In this document: piece after piece, positions 1 to 44,165 of the stretch
Layout: every line of letters begins with the position of its first letter
Position numbering within the stretch: the stretch's first letter is position 1
NCBI RefSeq assembly: GCF_000745895.1
Contig: NZ_JQKE01000012.1
Location: 1-62,448 of the forward strand
Origin: Stenoxybacter acetivorans DSM 19021
GTDB lineage: Bacteria; Pseudomonadota; Gammaproteobacteria; Burkholderiales; Neisseriaceae
Direction of reading: 5' to 3'
DNA length: 62,448 nt
Notes under the pieces: model-generated
Seen by the model: only the letters and a program-made list of their open reading frames with translations
Told to the model about the DNA's origin: nothing
Databases searched by the model: none
Program-made: the position numbers and the translations under genes

Positions 1-95
1 ATCAGACATCAGACATCAGACATCAGACATCAGACATCAGACATCAGACATCAGACATCAGACATCAGACATCAGACATCAGACATCAGACATCA
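1..95. repeat. 7-bp tandem repeat, ATCAGAC
   Basis: Thirteen perfect copies of ATCAGAC plus four more bases run from the window edge to position 95, so the true array may be longer. It ends 344 bases before pyrG. The unit length is not a multiple of three, which would make it phase-variable if it lay inside a coding region to the left, but no reading frame can be judged from this side. The array has no spacers, so it is not a CRISPR. Confidence 0.95.
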
Positions 96-277
96 TTATA
101 GACAGATGTGAAGATGTTGAGATCTACTTTGTTTAATTTCTTAATTAGATTATTACATAAGTTACTAAAATAAGGTGATTGTATTTTTTGAGCAAATGAT
201 TGTAAAAATATATCAGATATAAAATTTTCATGAAGTTTGACTAGTATCAAATAAGTATGTGATGCTGCTGTATTTTT

Positions 278-5708: not shown

Positions 5709-5838
5709 TTGTGTCAAAACAATGATTTTCTTTTAAAATCACGGCGGTGCTGTTCTGAAGAATGCGCCGCTGTCTTCAAAATTCGGCTGTTGCTGACGGC
5801 TGTTTCCGATTCCCCGATTTTTTCCTTTGTCCATTCGT

Positions 5839-7146
5839 ATGAATATACCCCATTCCAATCACGCTTCTCAAACCCAATCGCGCCTGCGGCAGCAAATTTT
5901 CAGCCGCCGTATGTTGCTTTGTGTTTTTACGGGCTTTACTTCAGGCTTGCCGCTGTATTTTTTGATTAATTTATTACCTGCATGGCTGCGCACTGAAGGT
6001 GTGGATTTGAAAAGTATTGGTTTATTTTCGCTGATTGGGCTGCCGTTTACATGGAAATTTATGTGGTCGCCGTTAATGGACGCGGTGCGTTTGCCATTTT
6101 TGGGCAGGCGGCGCGGCTGGATGGCGGTAACGCAAATCATGTTGCTGGTATTGATGGCTTTATTTGCGCTGCTCGACCCCAAGCAAAGCGGCATGTTGTG
6201 GTGGATTATGGGTTTGGCATTGGCAGTAGCATTTTTTTCAGCCAGCCAAGACATTGCGTTGGACGCGTTTCGGCGCGAAATACTGCCTGACAGCGAATTG
6301 GGTTTGGGTAATGCCATTCATGTTAATGCGTATCGCATTGCTGCTTTAATTCCGGGTTCTTTGTCTTTGGTGCTGGCGGATATTTATCCGTGGCAGACGG
6401 TGTTTATGATAACTGCACTGTTTATGCTGCCGGGTTTGCTGATGACACTGTTTTTGGCAAAAGAACCCACATTGCCGAGTATTGCCCCAAAAACCTTGCA
6501 CCAAACCAGTGTTGAGTCGTTTATTGAATTTTTTGGCAGAAAGGGCATCAAATCAGCCTTGCTGGTGTTGCTGTTTATCTTTTTATACAAATTGGGCGAC
6601 AGCATGGCAACCGCGCTGGCAACGCCGTTTTATTTGGATATGGGCTATTCCAAAACCGATGTGGGCTTAATTGCCAAAAATGCGGGGCTGTGGCCGGCGG
6701 TGATTTCCGGTATTGTCGGCGGTATTTGGATGCTGAAAATCGGCATTAATAAAGCCTTGTGGCTGTTTGGTGTGGTGCAAGTCGTTACCATTTTGGGCTT
6801 TGTTTGGCTGGCGGGTTTTGGGCATTTCGATACCATTACTGCAACAGAGCAGTGGATGCTGGCGGCGGTGATTGCTGCCGAAGCGGTGGGTGTTGGTTTG
6901 GGTACGGCGGCATTTGTGGCGTATATGGCGCGTGAAACCAATCCCGCATTCACGGCCACTCAGCTGGCTTTATTTACCAGCCTTGCCGCAGTGCCGCGCA
7001 CTTTTTTCAATTCCGGCACAGGCTATTTAATTGAGTGGCTGGGCTATGTGTCGTTTTTCTGGCTGTGTTTTGCTTTGGCAATACCGGGTATGTTGCTGCT
7101 GCATTGGGCAGCACCTTGGCGGGAAACGCCGCGCAATATCGGCTGA
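5839..7146 (+). CDS. ampG: AmpG-type muropeptide permease (MFS)
   Basis: Twelve-helix major facilitator transporter of 435 residues. AmpG proteins import anhydromuropeptides released during cell-wall turnover. Family-like stretches include FTGFTSGLPLYFL near the N-terminus, GLPFTWKFMWSP and SASQDIALDAFRRE. A TTG codon 12 bases upstream is in frame, but the ATG at 5839 is a better start. Next to genes for lipid and thiol metabolism; no recycling enzyme is adjacent. Confidence 0.88.
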   Translation: MNIPHSNHASQTQSRLRQQIFSRRMLLCVFTGFTSGLPLYFLINLLPAWLRTEGVDLKSIGLFSLIGLPFTWKFMWSPLMDAVRLPFLGRRRGWMAVTQIMLLVLMALFALLDPKQSGMLWWIMGLALAVAFFSASQDIALDAFRREILPDSELGLGNAIHVNAYRIAALIPGSLSLVLADIYPWQTVFMITALFMLPGLLMTLFLAKEPTLPSIAPKTLHQTSVESFIEFFGRKGIKSALLVLLFIFLYKLGDSMATALATPFYLDMGYSKTDVGLIAKNAGLWPAVISGIVGGIWMLKIGINKALWLFGVVQVVTILGFVWLAGFGHFDTITATEQWMLAAVIAAEAVGVGLGTAAFVAYMARETNPAFTATQLALFTSLAAVPRTFFNSGTGYLIEWLGYVSFFWLCFALAIPGMLLLHWAAPWRETPRNIG

Positions 7147-7183: not shown

Positions 7184-7335
7184 TAATCCACAGAATCTGT
7201 GGATAAGTCTGTTGATAAGTTGTTGGTCGGTGCGTTAAAGTGCCCAAAATAAACGGTTCAAGCCCAATTGATTAAAAAATAATCAGCTTAAATAATTTAT
7301 TTATAATCAATATGTTAAAATAATCATGTTGTTTT
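7184..7335. repeat. dispersed DnaA-box/AT-rich element, copy 1
   Basis: This lies in the 384-base gap between ampG and phoH. It carries TGTGGATAA (7198-7206, the consensus DnaA box), TGTTGATAA (7210-7218, one mismatch) and, on the opposite strand, TAATCCACA (7184-7192, one mismatch). An AT-rich tract follows, starting with ATTGATTAAAAAATAATCA at 7267. A second copy at 40287-40438 shares the boxes, this 19-base word and a terminal GTTGTTTT at the same spacing (140 bases from CCACAG to GTTGTTTT in both). The remaining gap, 7336-7530, shows nothing else clear. Confidence 0.75.
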
Positions 7336-7530
7336 GAAATCACCATTTATTGTCAATGCGCTGAAAACATGACATCAATAAAACGCTGTGTAAAAAATCC
7401 CTTGTTTTTCTTGACAAGTGGTGGTTTACGGGAAAATTGCTTCGGTTGATTGACCAAGCCGCAAAGGTAGACTTGCCGCACTTTTGCTATTGCTTGTCAT
7501 AAGCCGATTGAGGTTGGCTCGCCGATTTTT

Positions 7531-8478
7531 TTACTCTTCATTTGCGTTGTCATAAGCATCAACAATTTTTTGTACCAGCGGGTGGCGCACAATGTCTTCA
7601 CTGGTGAATACGTGAAAGTAAATGCCGTCGATATTTTGCAATTTTTCGCGGGCATCTTTTAAGCCGCTTTTAATGTGTTTGGGTAAATCAATTTGGCTGA
7701 TGTCGCCGGTAATCACGGCTTTTGCGCCAAAGCCGATGCGGGTGAGAAACATTTTCATTTGCTCCGGCGTGGTGTTTTGCGCTTCGTCCAAAATCACATA
7801 CGCGCCATTGAGGGTGCGTCCGCGCATATACGCCAAAGGTGCGATTTCAATTAAGCCTTTTTCCAAAAGTTTGGTTACGCGGTCAAAGCCCATTAAGTCG
7901 TATAAAGCATCGTAGAGCGGGCGCAGATAGGGATCTACTTTTTGCGCCAAATTACCGGGTAAAAACCCCAGTTTTTCACCTGCTTCCACAGCAGGGCGCA
8001 CCAATACGATGCGTTCCACTTGGTGTTTTTCGATGGCATCAACCGCTGCTGCCACTGCCAAATAGGTCTTGCCTGTGCCGGCAGGTCCCAATCCGAACAC
8101 CACGTCGTGAGTGAGTAAGGCGCGGATATAGCCGCTTTGGCGCGGGGTTCTGCCGCTGAGGTTGCCGCGGCGGGTGCGGAAATGCCAATTGCCGCCTTGA
8201 TTTTCGTGTTGTTGTGTATGGGTTTTGGCTTCTACTGCCGCCAGTTGAATGTCGTGGTTGTCCAAATCGCGTTCTGCGGCGGTTTTTGCCAATATGTTTA
8301 AAGCCGTAATGCCGATTTTCGGGTTGCCGCCGCTGATAATAAATTGATGAAAGCGGCGGCTGATGTCTAAATCCAATGCTTTGGCAAGGGCTGTGATGTG
8401 TTCGTCTAATGCGCCGCACAAACGCTGTAAAATGGTGTTGTCAATGTCAGTGAGGTTGTGGTGTAAAGTTTGGGTCAT
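7531..8478 (-). CDS. PhoH-family ATPase (YbeZ type)
   Basis: Cytoplasmic P-loop ATPase of 315 residues. PhoH/YbeZ proteins are linked to RNA metabolism and often paired with the RNase YbeY; the exact role is unsettled. The Walker A motif GPAGTGKT and Walker B region [10 protein letters not shown] are intact, followed by [15 protein letters not shown], which is typical of the family. The N-terminal 110 residues form the usual nucleic-acid-binding-like extension. ybeY is not in the window. Minus-strand transcription continues from the gene at 8527-9405, 48 bases upstream. Confidence 0.9.
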
Positions 8479-39406: not shown

Positions 39407-40201
39407 TCAGCGTGAATTGATTTCAGCAGCACATAAATAAATCATAGCCAAAAAAGACGAATCCGTTTTATCAGCTCTCATCGCAATTCGCTTATATTCC
39501 TTCAACTTGGTAAAGTAATTTTCAACCAAATGCCGCCATTTATACATCTCTTTATCCAATATTCTTGGATTTTTTCGGTTGGATTTTTTCGGTTGGATTT
39601 TTTCGGTTGGATTTTTGTGCGATAACCGCTTTCACGCCACGCCCATCTAATTCCTGAAAAAGCCAATCTGCATCAAAGGCTTTATCTGCTAACAGTGCTT
39701 GAATATCCGTATTTTCAATTAGCGCTAGAACGCCGGCTATGTCGTGCTTGTTACCCGGTAATAAAACAAATTTCACCAAATTACCCAAAGCATCAACCAA
39801 CGCCATAATCTTGGTTGTTACTCCGCCGCGAGAATGACCGATTGCTTGATTACGCGTCCCGCCCACCGCACCTTGTCCGTGACGATGTACTTTCGATATT
39901 GTGCCGTCAATGGCGGCATATTCTAAGTCCGGCTTATTACTTAGTATGTTGAAAATATTCTTAAAAATACCTTTTTTAACCAATTGTTGTATCGTCTGTA
40001 AACGGTATTCCATTTACCAAACGACTTGGGTAAATCACGCCAAGGACTCCCTGTTCGGGCTATCCAAAGAATTGCTTCAAGAAATAAACGATTATTTTTC
40101 CCTATTCGCCCTCTGTCTGTTGCTTTTCCAAGACATAAAGGTTCTATTTTTTTCCATTGGGTATCGGTCAGTTTTAATCTATCCATTTGTTTATTATACA
40201 T
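39407..40201 (-). pseudogene. IS5-family transposase, frameshifted
   Basis: The N-terminal frame (from MDRLKLTDTQW at 40186, or 40201) holds the helix-turn-helix. The second frame holds the first two catalytic Asp (AAIDGTISKVHRHGQGA and LLADKAFDADW). The -1 shift occurs at TTAAAAAAGG near 39977. After NRKNP the frame is thrown off by two extra 14-bp units. The true C-terminus, with RHLVENYFTKLKEYKRIAMRADK and the catalytic Glu, continues in another frame to the stop at 39407. As it stands, the element cannot make full transposase without slippage. Confidence 0.85.
39565..39617. repeat. 14-bp tandem repeat in the transposase gene
   Basis: Three full copies of TTGGATTTTTTCGG start at 39565, 39579 and 39593, followed by a partial copy. 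Read on the coding strand, a single unit would join NRKNP directly to RILDKEM; the two extra units add 28 bases and shift the frame by one. Confidence 0.9.
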
Positions 40202-40286: not shown

Positions 40287-40438
40287 TAGCCCACAGAATC
40301 TGTGGATAAGTTTGTGGATAAGCTGTTGGACGAGGCAAGAAAAGTGAATGAAATCCATGCTGCACACATGATTGATTAAAAAATAATCAATCATATATTT
40401 ATATAAAAATCATAATGTTATATATAATACGTTGTTTT
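40287..40438. repeat. dispersed DnaA-box/AT-rich element, copy 2
   Basis: It carries two consensus DnaA boxes, TGTGGATAA at 40301-40309 and 40313-40321, then a 50-base middle, then the AT-rich tract starting ATTGATTAAAAAATAATCA at 40371. Over the first 39 bases from CCACAG it differs from copy 1 at only three positions. The middle part is unrelated. It lies 60 bases from the IS5 end and 82 bases from the dacB stop. The mnmG gene is 5 kb away. Confidence 0.75.
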
Positions 40439-40519
40439 ATTGGCTTAAATAATTTATTTGGTAAGATTGTTTTTGAACGCACAAACACTGTGTATGAATC
40501 ACAAAAAGTAGGGTATTTT

Positions 40520-41980
40520 TTAATCCTTATCGGGTGTTGTGTGTTTTTGTTTGGGTGCTTGCGGCACTGTATGGGCTTCTTCCCAGTTTTGGGCGCGGTG
40601 CAATACTTCGCTTACCAAGTAATCCAAATCAGGCAAATAGGCTTTGCTACCGACAGAGTTGATGATAACCACGATAAGCAGCGGGTGTTGCTGCGGGTTT
40701 TCAGGCAGCCAATAGCCTGCCAAAGCGCGGACATTCGCCAGTGTGCCGGTTTTTAAACGCAAACTGCCGCCGATTTTTTTGAAGCGGTTTTTTAGTGTGC
40801 CGTCATAGCCGGCAATGGGCAGGCTGTCGATAAATGCCGATGCGAACGGGGCGTGATAGGCTTTTTCCAGCATATCGCCGATAAACCGTGCGCTGACGCG
40901 TTCGCGGCGGGATAAGCCGGAGCCGTTTTCCAATATCAAGGTTTCATCGTCCAATCCTGCGGTAATCAGTGTGCGCCGTGCCGTGATTTTGGCGTTTTGC
41001 AGGGTGCTGCCGTTGCTGTTTTGCCCTAAGGTGAGAAACACGGTGCGGGCAATGGTGTTGTTGGAAAACTTGTTCATGTCTGCCAACACTTGCGATAAGG
41101 GCTTGGAATCTTGCACTGCCAAGATTCTTGCATTTATCGGGGTACGGCCTTCGGCAAACGTTACCCGATTGCCGCCGTCTGCCAGCCAATAACCGAGGAA
41201 GCTTTGACGAGCAAAGGTCTGCGTGTCGAGCATATTGAAAAACATTTTTTTGCCGGAGCAGGAAATCGGTATTTGCCCGCGGACACGCAAGGTATCTTTA
41301 TCGTATTGTGCACGCACATAATTGGATAAGCGCGAACAAGCGGCAGAGCTGTTTTGCCGTGTAACTTGAATATCGGTGTTGATGTCTGGCAAGGGCGGGT
41401 CGGTGATGATTTGCGGGTTGCCGTATTCATCAATAGCCGCTTGCAGCCACGCTACTTTATAAGCCACCAGATGCGGGTCGGGCGGTGTGGTGAACGTTTC
41501 GGCGGCATCGGCTTCAAAACCGTCGGCACTGCCGATGCTGTCCCATACGCTACGGTCAAACACCACTTGTCCGTTAATGCGATTGATGCCGTTTAAGCGC
41601 AATTGCGCCTGCATGGCTTGTAAACTTTCTTGGTCAAAAACAGGGTCGCCGCTGCCGATCCAATAGAGATTACCCATCAGTGTGCCGTTGATAATGGGTG
41701 CATCACTTTTCCAAACCGTGCGCCAGCGGTGGTTTTCACCCAAATGGTTCAAAGCGGCAAAGGTTGTTACCAATTTCATTACCGAAGCGGGATTGACGCT
41801 GACATCGGCGCGATGTGCGGTGAGCACTTCGCCTGTTTGCAAATCACGGGTGTAAATAGCGATTTCTTCAGGCAAGATGCGTCCGAAGCTCAAAGCGTGG
41901 ACAGGCTGAAAGATGCCGAAAGACAAAGATGCCGACAATAAATAAGGGCTTACTTTTTTAATAATATTTTTTAAAAACAT
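40520..41980 (-). CDS. dacB: D-alanyl-D-alanine carboxypeptidase/endopeptidase (PBP4 type)
   Basis: Periplasmic low-molecular-mass penicillin-binding protein, 486 residues, with a signal peptide (about 1-30, ending HALS). The class C triad is visible: SVMK with the nucleophile, the SNN motif in MNKFSNNTIAR, and KTGTL. It trims and cleaves peptidoglycan peptides. It starts 4 bases after the priA stop, so the two are translationally linked. An in-frame start at 42010 lies within priA and is less likely. Confidence 0.93.
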   Translation of the reverse strand: MFLKNIIKKVSPYLLSASLSFGIFQPVHALSFGRILPEEIAIYTRDLQTGEVLTAHRADVSVNPASVMKLVTTFAALNHLGENHRWRTVWKSDAPIINGTLMGNLYWIGSGDPVFDQESLQAMQAQLRLNGINRINGQVVFDRSVWDSIGSADGFEADAAETFTTPPDPHLVAYKVAWLQAAIDEYGNPQIITDPPLPDINTDIQVTRQNSSAACSRLSNYVRAQYDKDTLRVRGQIPISCSGKKMFFNMLDTQTFARQSFLGYWLADGGNRVTFAEGRTPINARILAVQDSKPLSQVLADMNKFSNNTIARTVFLTLGQNSNGSTLQNAKITARRTLITAGLDDETLILENGSGLSRRERVSARFIGDMLEKAYHAPFASAFIDSLPIAGYDGTLKNRFKKIGGSLRLKTGTLANVRALAGYWLPENPQQHPLLIVVIINSVGSKAYLPDLDYLVSEVLHRAQNWEEAHTVPQAPKQKHTTPDKD

Positions 41981-41984
41981 GGTG

Positions 41985-44165
41985 CTACATTTCCAAAGGA
42001 TCGACATCAATTAACCACCTGCTTTTTTTGTGTTGTTTTTGTGCCGCGGTTAAGCCTTGCTGCCACAGGCTGATTGCGTGGTGCAGATCGCGGCGGTTTT
42101 CACTTTCCAGAAAAATTTGCGCCCGTTCCCAGCCCGCCAGACGAGCCATCAGCATGGGAACAGGTCCGAGCTGGCGCACCGTTGTCAAAGCCGCCAATGG
42201 TTTTTGTAAGGCTGCCTGAACTTCGCGCAGCAAGGCTTGAGCTTCTGCGGCACTGGGTGCATCGGCACGTATGGCTGCCATGTAGGCAAACGGCGGCAAA
42301 CCCATTTCCTGCCGCTGCCGCAATTCTTCGTCGGCAAATAAGGCATAATCTTGCGCCTGCAAGGCTTGGAACACGCGGTGCTCCGGCCATTGGCTCTGTA
42401 CCCACACTTCACCGATGGCATCAGCACGTCCGGCACGCCCTGCCACTTGCATCAATTCGGCAAACAAACGTTCTGATGAACGAAAATCGGCACTGTAAAG
42501 ACTGCCGTCGGCATTGACCACAATAACCAAATTCAAACGCGCAAAATCATGCCCTTTCGCCAGCATTTGTGTGCCGACCAATACATCAATTTCATTGCGC
42601 TCAATACGGGCATACAAATTTGCCCAATCACTTTTACGGGCGGTGCTGTCGCGATCCACGCGTTCGATGCTGGCGGTTGGCAGTAAGGCGCGCAAAGTAT
42701 CTTCTGCACGCTGCGTGCCTTGTCCCACCGCGCTTAAATCTTGATTGCCGCAATCGGGGCAAATCGATGGAATGGGTTGGCGATGGCCGCAATGGTGGCA
42801 GCGCAATTGCCGTGCTTGCTGATGCAATACCAGTTTTGCCGAACAATGAGGACAACCAAATACATAACCGCAATCGCCGCAAAACAACACGGGCGCGAAA
42901 CCGCGCCGATTCAGATACACCATGCTCATGCCGCCGTCGGCAAAATTATCGCGTAATTTTTGCAAGGCGGGGGCAGAAAAACCGTTATCCAATAATTGGC
43001 GGCGGGTATCCAATAAACGTACTTGCGGCGGTTTGGCGGTTTCACGGGCGCGGCGGCTTAAAGTGAACAGCCGATATTGCCCGCGCGATGCCTTGTGCCA
43101 ACTTTCCAGCGAGGGCGTGGCACTGCCCAGCACAATGGGACACGCCGCTTGTTGCGCACGCCAAATGGCCAAATCCCGCGCATGGTAGCGCAATTCGCTT
43201 TCTTGTTTGAACGAGCTGTCGTGCTCTTCGTCCACCACAATTAAGCCAAGGTTTGGCAATGGTGTAAACACAGCCAAACGTGTGCCGATAATCAAAGATG
43301 CTTGTTGGCTTTGCGCGCGTAAATAATCATGAGCGCGTTCCCCCGCTGCTGTTTGGCTGTGCAACACCACTGCGGGCGTATTGGGGAAATACCGCTGTAA
43401 ACGCGTTAATAATTGTGGTGTGAGGTTGATTTCAGGCAGCAAGAACAATACTTGTTTGCCCGAAGTCAAAACAGCAGCCATGATGTCAAAATACACTTCG
43501 GTTTTACCGCTGCCGGTGATGCCGTGCAGCAAAAACGATGTAAATCCGCCTAAGGCGGCCTGAACGGCATCTGATGCGGAGCACTGTTCTTCGTTTAAAT
43601 CATATTCGCTTTGCGGCAGCACATTTTGCGGCGGTGCTTCGGTTTTCAGCCAGCCGTTATCCAACCAAGTATCAATCCATTTTTTTGCTTGGGTATGAAT
43701 GGATTTTAATTCACTGATTGAGCGCGGTGCGGCAGATAATGCTTGCCACAAAGCGTGTGTTTTTTGATGCCGCATGGGCGGCGGTGTTTGTGTCAAACCA
43801 AGTTCGGATAAAACGTAATAAAGCGGCAACGGCGGCAAAACAGCTGCTTTTGGGGTGCGCAAAACCTGCGGCAGTGCCGCAAATACTGCTTGTCCCAAAG
43901 GATAATGGTAGTAACGGGCAGTGAAATCCAAAAACAAACGCCAATCGCGGTCAAAAGGCATTTCGTTGGTGAACACCGTTTCAATCGGCAGAATTTTATT
44001 GGCATCAATATCGGCTTCATCGGTACAACGCCACACAATACCGACTGCCAATTTGCCGCGAAAACGCACTGCTACCCGTGTTCCCTCCGCCAAACGGACA
44101 GGGTGTGTGTAGGTGAATAAATGCGGCAGCGGTACATTCAATGCCAAATGGTGGTAAATGGTCAT
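41985..44165 (-). CDS. priA: primosomal helicase PriA
   Basis: Restarts stalled replication forks. The 726 residues have the 3'-end-binding N-terminal domain, Walker A GITGSGKTEVY, the DEEHD box, and a zinc-binding insertion with CGDCGYVFGCPHC and CHHCG...CPDC (eight Cys). Helicase motifs V and VI (GTQMLAKGHDF, QVAGRAGR) are intact. A TTG 12 bases upstream is in frame; ATG at 44165 is preferred. A DUS (42209-42220) lies in the gene. Confidence 0.97.
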   Translation of the reverse strand: MTIYHHLALNVPLPHLFTYTHPVRLAEGTRVAVRFRGKLAVGIVWRCTDEADIDANKILPIETVFTNEMPFDRDWRLFLDFTARYYHYPLGQAVFAALPQVLRTPKAAVLPPLPLYYVLSELGLTQTPPPMRHQKTHALWQALSAAPRSISELKSIHTQAKKWIDTWLDNGWLKTEAPPQNVLPQSEYDLNEEQCSASDAVQAALGGFTSFLLHGITGSGKTEVYFDIMAAVLTSGKQVLFLLPEINLTPQLLTRLQRYFPNTPAVVLHSQTAAGERAHDYLRAQSQQASLIIGTRLAVFTPLPNLGLIVVDEEHDSSFKQESELRYHARDLAIWRAQQAACPIVLGSATPSLESWHKASRGQYRLFTLSRRARETAKPPQVRLLDTRRQLLDNGFSAPALQKLRDNFADGGMSMVYLNRRGFAPVLFCGDCGYVFGCPHCSAKLVLHQQARQLRCHHCGHRQPIPSICPDCGNQDLSAVGQGTQRAEDTLRALLPTASIERVDRDSTARKSDWANLYARIERNEIDVLVGTQMLAKGHDFARLNLVIVVNADGSLYSADFRSSERLFAELMQVAGRAGRADAIGEVWVQSQWPEHRVFQALQAQDYALFADEELRQRQEMGLPPFAYMAAIRADAPSAAEAQALLREVQAALQKPLAALTTVRQLGPVPMLMARLAGWERAQIFLESENRRDLHHAISLWQQGLTAAQKQHKKSRWLIDVDPLEM

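Follow-up and report, generated by a model that had tools for sequence, protein, structure and literature searches.

Candidate DARS2-type DnaA-reactivating sites in Stenoxybacter acetivorans and their recurrence in Neisseriaceae

The DnaA ATP/ADP switch has been worked out mainly in E. coli, and two DnaA-box-bearing elements of Stenoxybacter acetivorans DSM 19021, found 33 kb apart in a window of 62,448 nucleotides (the whole stretch of DNA analysed here), raise the question of what DnaA might do at such places. A first-pass annotation had considered an origin of replication with a duplicate, a DnaA-titrating site, or a small mobile repeat. We consider it probable, at roughly two chances in three, that the two elements, c1 (7184-7395) and c2 (40287-40497), are DARS2-type DnaA-reactivating sites, a function that we carry over from E. 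coli. This reading is based on the layout and spacing of the binding sites, their recurrence in relatives, the partner genes of the genome and a better origin candidate elsewhere.

Both elements are intergenic and about 210 bp long, and they share their DnaA boxes, the AT word and an IHF-type site. The likeness described in the first-pass annotation was confirmed by direct reading: the 39 bases counted from CCACAG at 7188 and at 40291 differ by three mismatches (five if the 39-mers are counted from 7184 and 40287 instead), both contain the 19-mer ATTGATTAAAAAATAATCA, at 7267 and 40371, which is 79 and 80 bases past CCACAG, and GTTGTTTT lies 140 bases past CCACAG in c1 and c2 alike. The 19-mer has no third occurrence in the window, and the octamer GTTGTTTT has 8 occurrences across it. 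The likeness of c1 and c2 is beyond chance, since a strict three-box pattern searched in the 2.6 Mb assembly finds exactly c1, c2 and a copy on contig C25 (hereafter c3) and its reversed control finds none.

The left neighbor of c1 is ampG (5827..7146, plus strand) and the right neighbor is a phoH-like gene (7531..8478, minus strand). The two genes converge, and c1 is flanked by their 3' ends. To the left of c2 is an IS5-family transposase ORF (39552..40013, minus strand), and to the right is a dacB/PBP4 gene (40520..42010, minus strand) whose 3' end faces c2. The IS5-family ORF encodes 153 aa, which align with positions 66-211 of a profile 258 positions long. Two large ORFs flank the C25 copy; by eye they resemble an ornithine cyclodeaminase-like gene and amtB. 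All three copies thus have the intergenic chromosomal location that is one criterion for a DARS.

In c1, DnaA box I (TAATCCACA, 7184..7192, plus strand) is inverted relative to boxes II and III and is separated by 5 bp from box II (TGTGGATAA, 7198..7206, minus strand), a perfect box that is in turn 3 bp from box III (TGTTGATAA, 7210..7218, minus strand). The core of the 19-base AT word is the 15-mer GATTAAAAAATAATC (7270..7284, at +72 from box II), which fits the Fis consensus GNNNAWWWWWTNNNC; for this reason, an earlier reading of the word as an unwinding-element 13-mer of the E. coli type was given up. That the Fis consensus is 15 bases long is mentioned in PMC4245941. An exact match to the IHF consensus WATCAANNNNTTR follows at +107 (AATCAATATGTTA, 7305..7317, plus strand), then a candidate box IV at +189 (TGTGTAAAA, 7387..7395, minus strand) that fits the loose consensus TTWTNCACA and, to its right, a TTGACA word (7411..7416, plus strand) that is recurrent in the family copies. 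The corresponding parts of c2 are a degenerate box I (TAGCCCACA, 40287..40295, plus strand), perfect boxes II and III (both TGTGGATAA, 40301..40309 and 40313..40321, minus strand), the same Fis-consensus 15-mer GATTAAAAAATAATC at +73 (40374..40388), an IHF-type site with one mismatch at +107 (AATCATAATGTTA, 40408..40420, plus strand) and a candidate box IV at +188 with one mismatch to TTWTNCACA (TGTGTATGA, 40489..40497, minus strand). In the general layout, counted from the first base of box II (0), box III is at +12 and the inverted box I at -14; the Fis 15-mer is mostly at +71..73, the IHF consensus mostly at +102..108, a further box (IV), pointing the same way as II, mostly at +174..192, and TTGACA often at +196..225.

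A whole-assembly blastn search with c1, proposed in the first-pass annotation as a way to count copies, returned three places, namely c1 itself, c2 (73%) and the C25 copy (75%). We additionally searched the assembly with a sequence-only profile, R1, which has 142 positions, was built from 10 copies (c1-c3 and seven from relatives) and gives rough E-values. It yielded 7 matches, of which the six listed are c1, c2 and those on contigs C25, C3, C16 and C26. The C3 copy (C3:65573-65703) is divergent and nearly full-length, covering model positions 5-136, and the two partial copies (C16:41686-41791 and C26:23997-24104) align with the profile no further than the A-tract motif. Full-length copies in this genome therefore appear to number about four (c1, c2, C25 and C3). 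Pairwise likeness among c1-c3 is 63-70% over 184-191 aligned columns. The C25 and C3 copies both have their IHF site at +105, exact in the former and with 1 mismatch in the latter; the Fis consensus is exact in c1 and c2, has 1 mismatch in the C25 copy and is not matched in the C3 copy; and box I is off consensus in c1-c3 and in the C3 copy.

This arrangement resembles that of the E. coli DARS sites. We located DARS1 and DARS2 in E. coli K-12 by map position and the single perfect box in each stretch; the DARS1 core reads TTATCCACT-5-TGTGGATAA-3-TGTGTATTA and the DARS2 core reads TTATCCCAG-5-TGTGGATAA-3-GGTGTAAGA, with box orientations and spacers equal to those of the c1, c2, C25 and C3 copies. 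Passages of the literature describe the two DARS sites as equal in box spacing, with box I facing the other way from II and III (PMC5742627), and the head-to-head pair I/II as characteristic of and essential for DARSs (PMC10380432); three boxes with an inverted box I, spaced by 5 and 3 bp, are what the elements here contain. The DARS2 core (NC_000913.3, about 2,969,451-2,969,485) lies upstream of mutH and touches the annotated ygdT, and like the elements here it is followed at +105 from box II by an IHF-like site (1 mismatch), which we infer to be one of the published IBS1-2. In the c1, c2, C25 and C3 copies, too, an IHF site stands at such a spacing from the core, a feature of the DARS2 subtype. 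DARS2 is described as dependent on IHF and Fis and as having additional DnaA boxes, and according to parts of PMC4245941 its activity needs the IHF and Fis sites and the position of IHF matters. DARS1 (right of bioD) shares the three-box core with its spacers and, according to descriptions, needs neither IHF nor Fis for its action; it has no downstream IHF site (≤1 mismatch), thus failing the IHF test, and passes the box IV test. The partial copies on C16 and C26, with boxes and A-tract motif only, may resemble DARS1 more. The elements nevertheless differ from DARS2 in several ways: their Fis-type 15-mer stands between core and IHF site, whereas the required FBS2-3 of E. coli appear, from passages of PMC4245941, to be on the far side of the IHF sites; neither a Fis match at +69..75 nor a box IV match at +170..195 is present in DARS2; and about four copies are present here in one genome.

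To see how far the layout extends, we surveyed 300 order-level genomes. The strict 5/3 core was found at 83 places in 69 of these genomes (none in the reversed control), and the other 231 genomes are without the strict pattern. When the spacer between boxes I and II was allowed to vary from 0 to 12 bp, 85 distinct places in 71 of the 300 genomes were obtained, and a 5-bp reading was available at 82 of them, the exceptions being three places in G198, G236 and G271. The free-spacer search gave 87 rows, two of which (G298 and G110) are second readings of listed places; one place (G341), given there with a 3-bp reading, has its 5-bp reading from the strict search and is counted among the 82. Because the sets of 69 and 47 instances used below include many loci found by a profile trained on the same motifs, the fair test is provided by 20 instances from other families of the order picked by the box core alone (20 loci with 21 of the 83 places, one cut by a contig end; they are partly non-independent, with three from one genus, g87). 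An IHF match (≤1 mismatch) at +100..110 occurs in 11 of these 20 (shuffled mean 0.18, maximum 2) and is absent from the other 9. The exact Fis 15-mer at +69..75 occurs in 6 (shuffled mean 0.04, maximum 1), leaving 14 without an exact match, and 11 have it with ≤1 mismatch. A box IV at +170..195 occurs in 15 (shuffled mean 0.80, maximum 5). Among the 69 core instances, the Fis 15-mer lies within +30..150 in 48 (shuffled mean 5.0) and an IHF site (≤1 mismatch) within +60..180 in 54 (shuffled mean 11.5). DARS-like sequences are reported from many proteobacteria (parts of the review PMC10380432), and Fis and the DARS2 core have been tied to gamma-proteobacteria related to E. coli (passages of PMC4245941). 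Searches of open-licence literature listed no paper whose title or abstract opening describes DARS-type sites in Neisseriaceae.

Within the Neisseriaceae, for which the profile survey used stricter filters, a profile match (E ≤ 0.01) was found in 82 of 83 genomes, including 71 of 71 good ones (completeness ≥90%, contamination ≤5%); the one genome without a match is 58% complete. Two locations recur in more than one genus, one upstream of proS and the other beside earP, where the element mostly adjoins a gyrase/topoisomerase IV A gene. We take genus g11 to be Neisseria-like from an uptake-sequence motif found in L019. The proS location is occupied in 15 of 18 complete Neisseria-like genomes with examined context (14 by clustering and G079 by position; G097 and G098 are excluded from the 18). 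In G079 (L206:9232-9784), proS has two elements upstream of it, their starts 417 bp apart; both lie within about 0.75 kb of the gene, and dif is 23 kb away. In S. acetivorans itself, the region upstream of proS scores 8.9 bits against the profile (E 0.14), which is not significant. A comparison of the ampG-phoH region in relatives had been suggested along with the first-pass annotation; of 80 phoH-flanking loci of named relatives, 40 were scanned and none of these contains an element, so no relative was seen with an element at the ampG-phoH position of c1.

In the Neisseria-like genus, the element is found near dif. The median distance of the best copy among the matches listed is 0.059 of the chromosome and the maximum 0.126, in 20 of 20 testable genomes; these are 20 of 24 single-contig genomes, the other four being without a dif match. 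The statistic uses the highest-scoring element per genome among the matches listed, and the chromosome lengths of G072, G082, G092, G097 and G098 were rounded or set. These 20 genomes are not independent because of shared ancestry and because the element is at proS in 15 of the 18 with examined context, and the small P value obtained for nearness to dif is accordingly an overstatement. The three non-proS genomes, G018 (two copies), G023 and G094, also have it near dif, at 0.0003-0.096; a weaker copy in G023 (53 vs 80 bits) is at proS and 0.474 from dif, and a second copy in G094, 0.5 bit below the chosen one, is 0.245 from dif. Of 26 such matches, 24 lie within 0.15 of dif. Outside this genus, in 6 genomes from five genera, the distance to dif is 0.119-0.483 of the chromosome. 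In E. coli, DARS2 lies between oriC and ter, unlike the Neisseria-like copies, and it is less effective near the terminus (parts of PMC5010248), so the placement of the Neisseria-like copies where E. coli DARS2 works less well is a counterpoint to the DARS2 reading.

The DnaA boxes, IHF site and AT-rich DNA of the elements look origin-like and are shared with oriC of E. coli, from which the elements differ in box arrangement, in being multiple and, in the Neisseria-like genus, in being near the terminus. That one copy is oriC, or that the copies are secondary origins, is nonetheless very improbable, and the origin option of the first-pass annotation found no support in the window skew, in a box cluster elsewhere in the assembly or in the dif positions of relatives. 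GC skew is positive in 12 of the 13 5-kb steps of the window with no clear minimum at c1 or c2, and in 2-kb steps there is one small dip at 38-40 kb, left of c2 and over the IS5 ORF, and none at c1. A GC-skew minimum opposite dif, as expected of oriC, was thus not found for the elements, with dif distances taken from relatives and the genome itself a draft; in the 20 testable Neisseria-like genomes, the best copy among the matches listed is never beyond 0.126 of the chromosome from dif. A cluster of DnaA boxes at C1:99377-99616 (TTATMCACA boxes at C1:99377-99503), between lpxC and an aroA-like gene, lies at a skew turn from -0.139 to +0.099 between 5-kb steps. Its box spacing (31 and 87 bp) is close to that of a cluster in the Neisseria-like genome G061 (30 and 86 bp; 91,073-91,197), which is about 4 kb from lpxC and lies opposite dif, 1.20 Mb from it on a chromosome of 2.24 Mb; the only profile match of G061 among the matches listed is 58 kb from dif, where the sampled GC skew turns from positive to negative. 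The skew of contig C1 is noisy and has its lowest cumulative point at about 75 kb rather than at the cluster (99.4 kb), which speaks for the origin alternative and leaves the C1 cluster only a candidate oriC. The only profile match of G001 among the matches listed also speaks for it, being opposite dif (0.483 of the chromosome) and near a skew switch. No DnaA-box cluster was found in the dnaA/dnaN region on C31 (L030). The lpxC-side cluster on C1 is the better oriC candidate, and together with the dif positions and the skew it led us to reject the oriC reading of c1 and c2.

Whether the elements could instead be datA-like, promoter-linked or simply repetitive was weighed on the same evidence. 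In a datA-like site, the box cluster and box IV would be joined over the IHF bend, and the outcome would be DnaA-ATP hydrolysis (or titration), a control of opposite sign. Box IV, pointing the same way as II and III, recurs past the IHF site in 41 of 47 family instances and 17 of 22 others, as against only 3-15 of 47 and 1-2 of 22 in control windows; E. coli datA has DnaA boxes on both sides of an IHF-type site at a comparable distance, two of them in the same direction with the site 93 bp from the nearer one (same sense), and we infer these to be the published boxes 2 and 3; and E. coli DARS2 itself fails the box IV test. However, the essential datA boxes are all in one direction (passages of PMC5742627), an arrangement that boxes II, III and IV fit and the inverted box I does not. 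An inverted box I at 5 bp, available in 82 of the 85 places, is a mark of DARS, whereas the inverted pair of datA has a 3-bp gap as read in the E. coli sequence, and a Fis-type site is a DARS2 component that the descriptions of datA consulted do not mention. Given the inverted, 5-bp-spaced box I and the Fis-type site, the datA reading fits less well, and we regard it as unlikely. The titrating option of the first-pass annotation stands in kind, in that a non-origin DnaA-binding site fits the elements, but "titrating" is less specific than DARS2-type. It is decidedly improbable that the elements are DnaA-responsive promoter regions controlling a neighbor such as proS. The position upstream of proS in 15 of 18 Neisseria-like genomes, the TTGACA after box IV in many copies and the presence of E. 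coli proS among DnaA-repressed genes (parts of PMC12371093) speak for this reading; but the neighbors vary elsewhere (earP and the topoisomerase gene, ampG/phoH, dacB, mutS, xseA), c1 lies between two converging gene ends, and the upstream region of the species' own proS gave no significant match. A small mobile or passively spreading repeat that carries DnaA boxes by chance might explain several copies per genome in varied places, the IS5-family ORF adjoining c2 and the tandem partial arrays of G006 and G015, yet c1-c3 are just 63-70% alike while their binding sites and spacings are nearly fixed, and two locations (proS, and earP with the topoisomerase gene) recur in more than one genus. We give this small mobile repeat hardly any probability. 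An ordinary scattered repeat is not supported either, with about four full copies in this genome, a layout that recurs in other families and matches in 82 of 83 family genomes.

For the preferred reading of c1 and c2 as DARS2-type sites, the genome contains suitable partners: IHF-beta is encoded on C21 and IHF-alpha on C53 (NCBIfam, both above cut-off), DnaA on C31, a Fis-like protein of 87 aa on C26 and an Hda-like protein on C69, the latter two below the NCBIfam curated cut-off. The presence of DnaA, IHF, Fis-like and Hda-like genes makes both ends of the DnaA-ATP/ADP cycle plausible here. By analogy with E. coli, ADP-DnaA would gather on boxes I, II and III, and the protomers on I and II would meet head to head and release ADP, after which apo-DnaA would take up ATP and become competent at oriC. 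At about +105, IHF would bend the DNA with the help of Fis bound near +72, so that the flank and box IV fold back onto the core; if the complex is active only with IHF and Fis bound, the exchange would be timed and growth-dependent. Protein binding, ADP release, timing and the working state of the copies are all predicted rather than observed.

We also considered a composite, with a DARS core and a datA-like box IV on opposite sides of the IHF bend, in which one site could recharge or discharge DnaA according to IHF and Fis occupancy; such a site might represent an older form that preceded the split of DARS2 and datA, and its placement near dif in the Neisseria-like genus might couple recharging to the end of replication. 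This proposal is speculative and we think it rather improbable.

Neisseriaceae include the meningococcus and the gonococcus. If the DARS2-type reading is true, such a site in nearly every Neisseriaceae genome examined, its IHF site as far from the core as in E. coli, would place the switch in that family and would offer defined 200-bp targets. As judged from sequence, what appears to be new is the presence of about four copies, a Fis-type site on the core side of the IHF site rather than past it, and copies near dif in all 20 testable Neisseria-like genomes. A genome with about four copies would bear on the DARS dose that a cell tolerates, and the terminus-near copies in Neisseria-like genomes on whether position sets timing.

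Some genomes of the survey have further peculiarities. G015 and G006 contain tandem arrays of four partial elements (L064:8776-9441 and L065:8478-9119) with starts about 150-250 bp apart, whose units have the boxes and the Fis-type motif and in most cases no IHF part. The profile matches G019 at 16 places, and the A-tract motif of this genome is inverted in L010, L021 and L023. In the Neisseria-like G061, 16 of 50 TTATMCACA boxes lie within 30 kb (C1:69992-100397; L202, L203) around the oriC candidate, which recalls the origin-proximal DnaA-box density described for E. coli in parts of PMC12371093.
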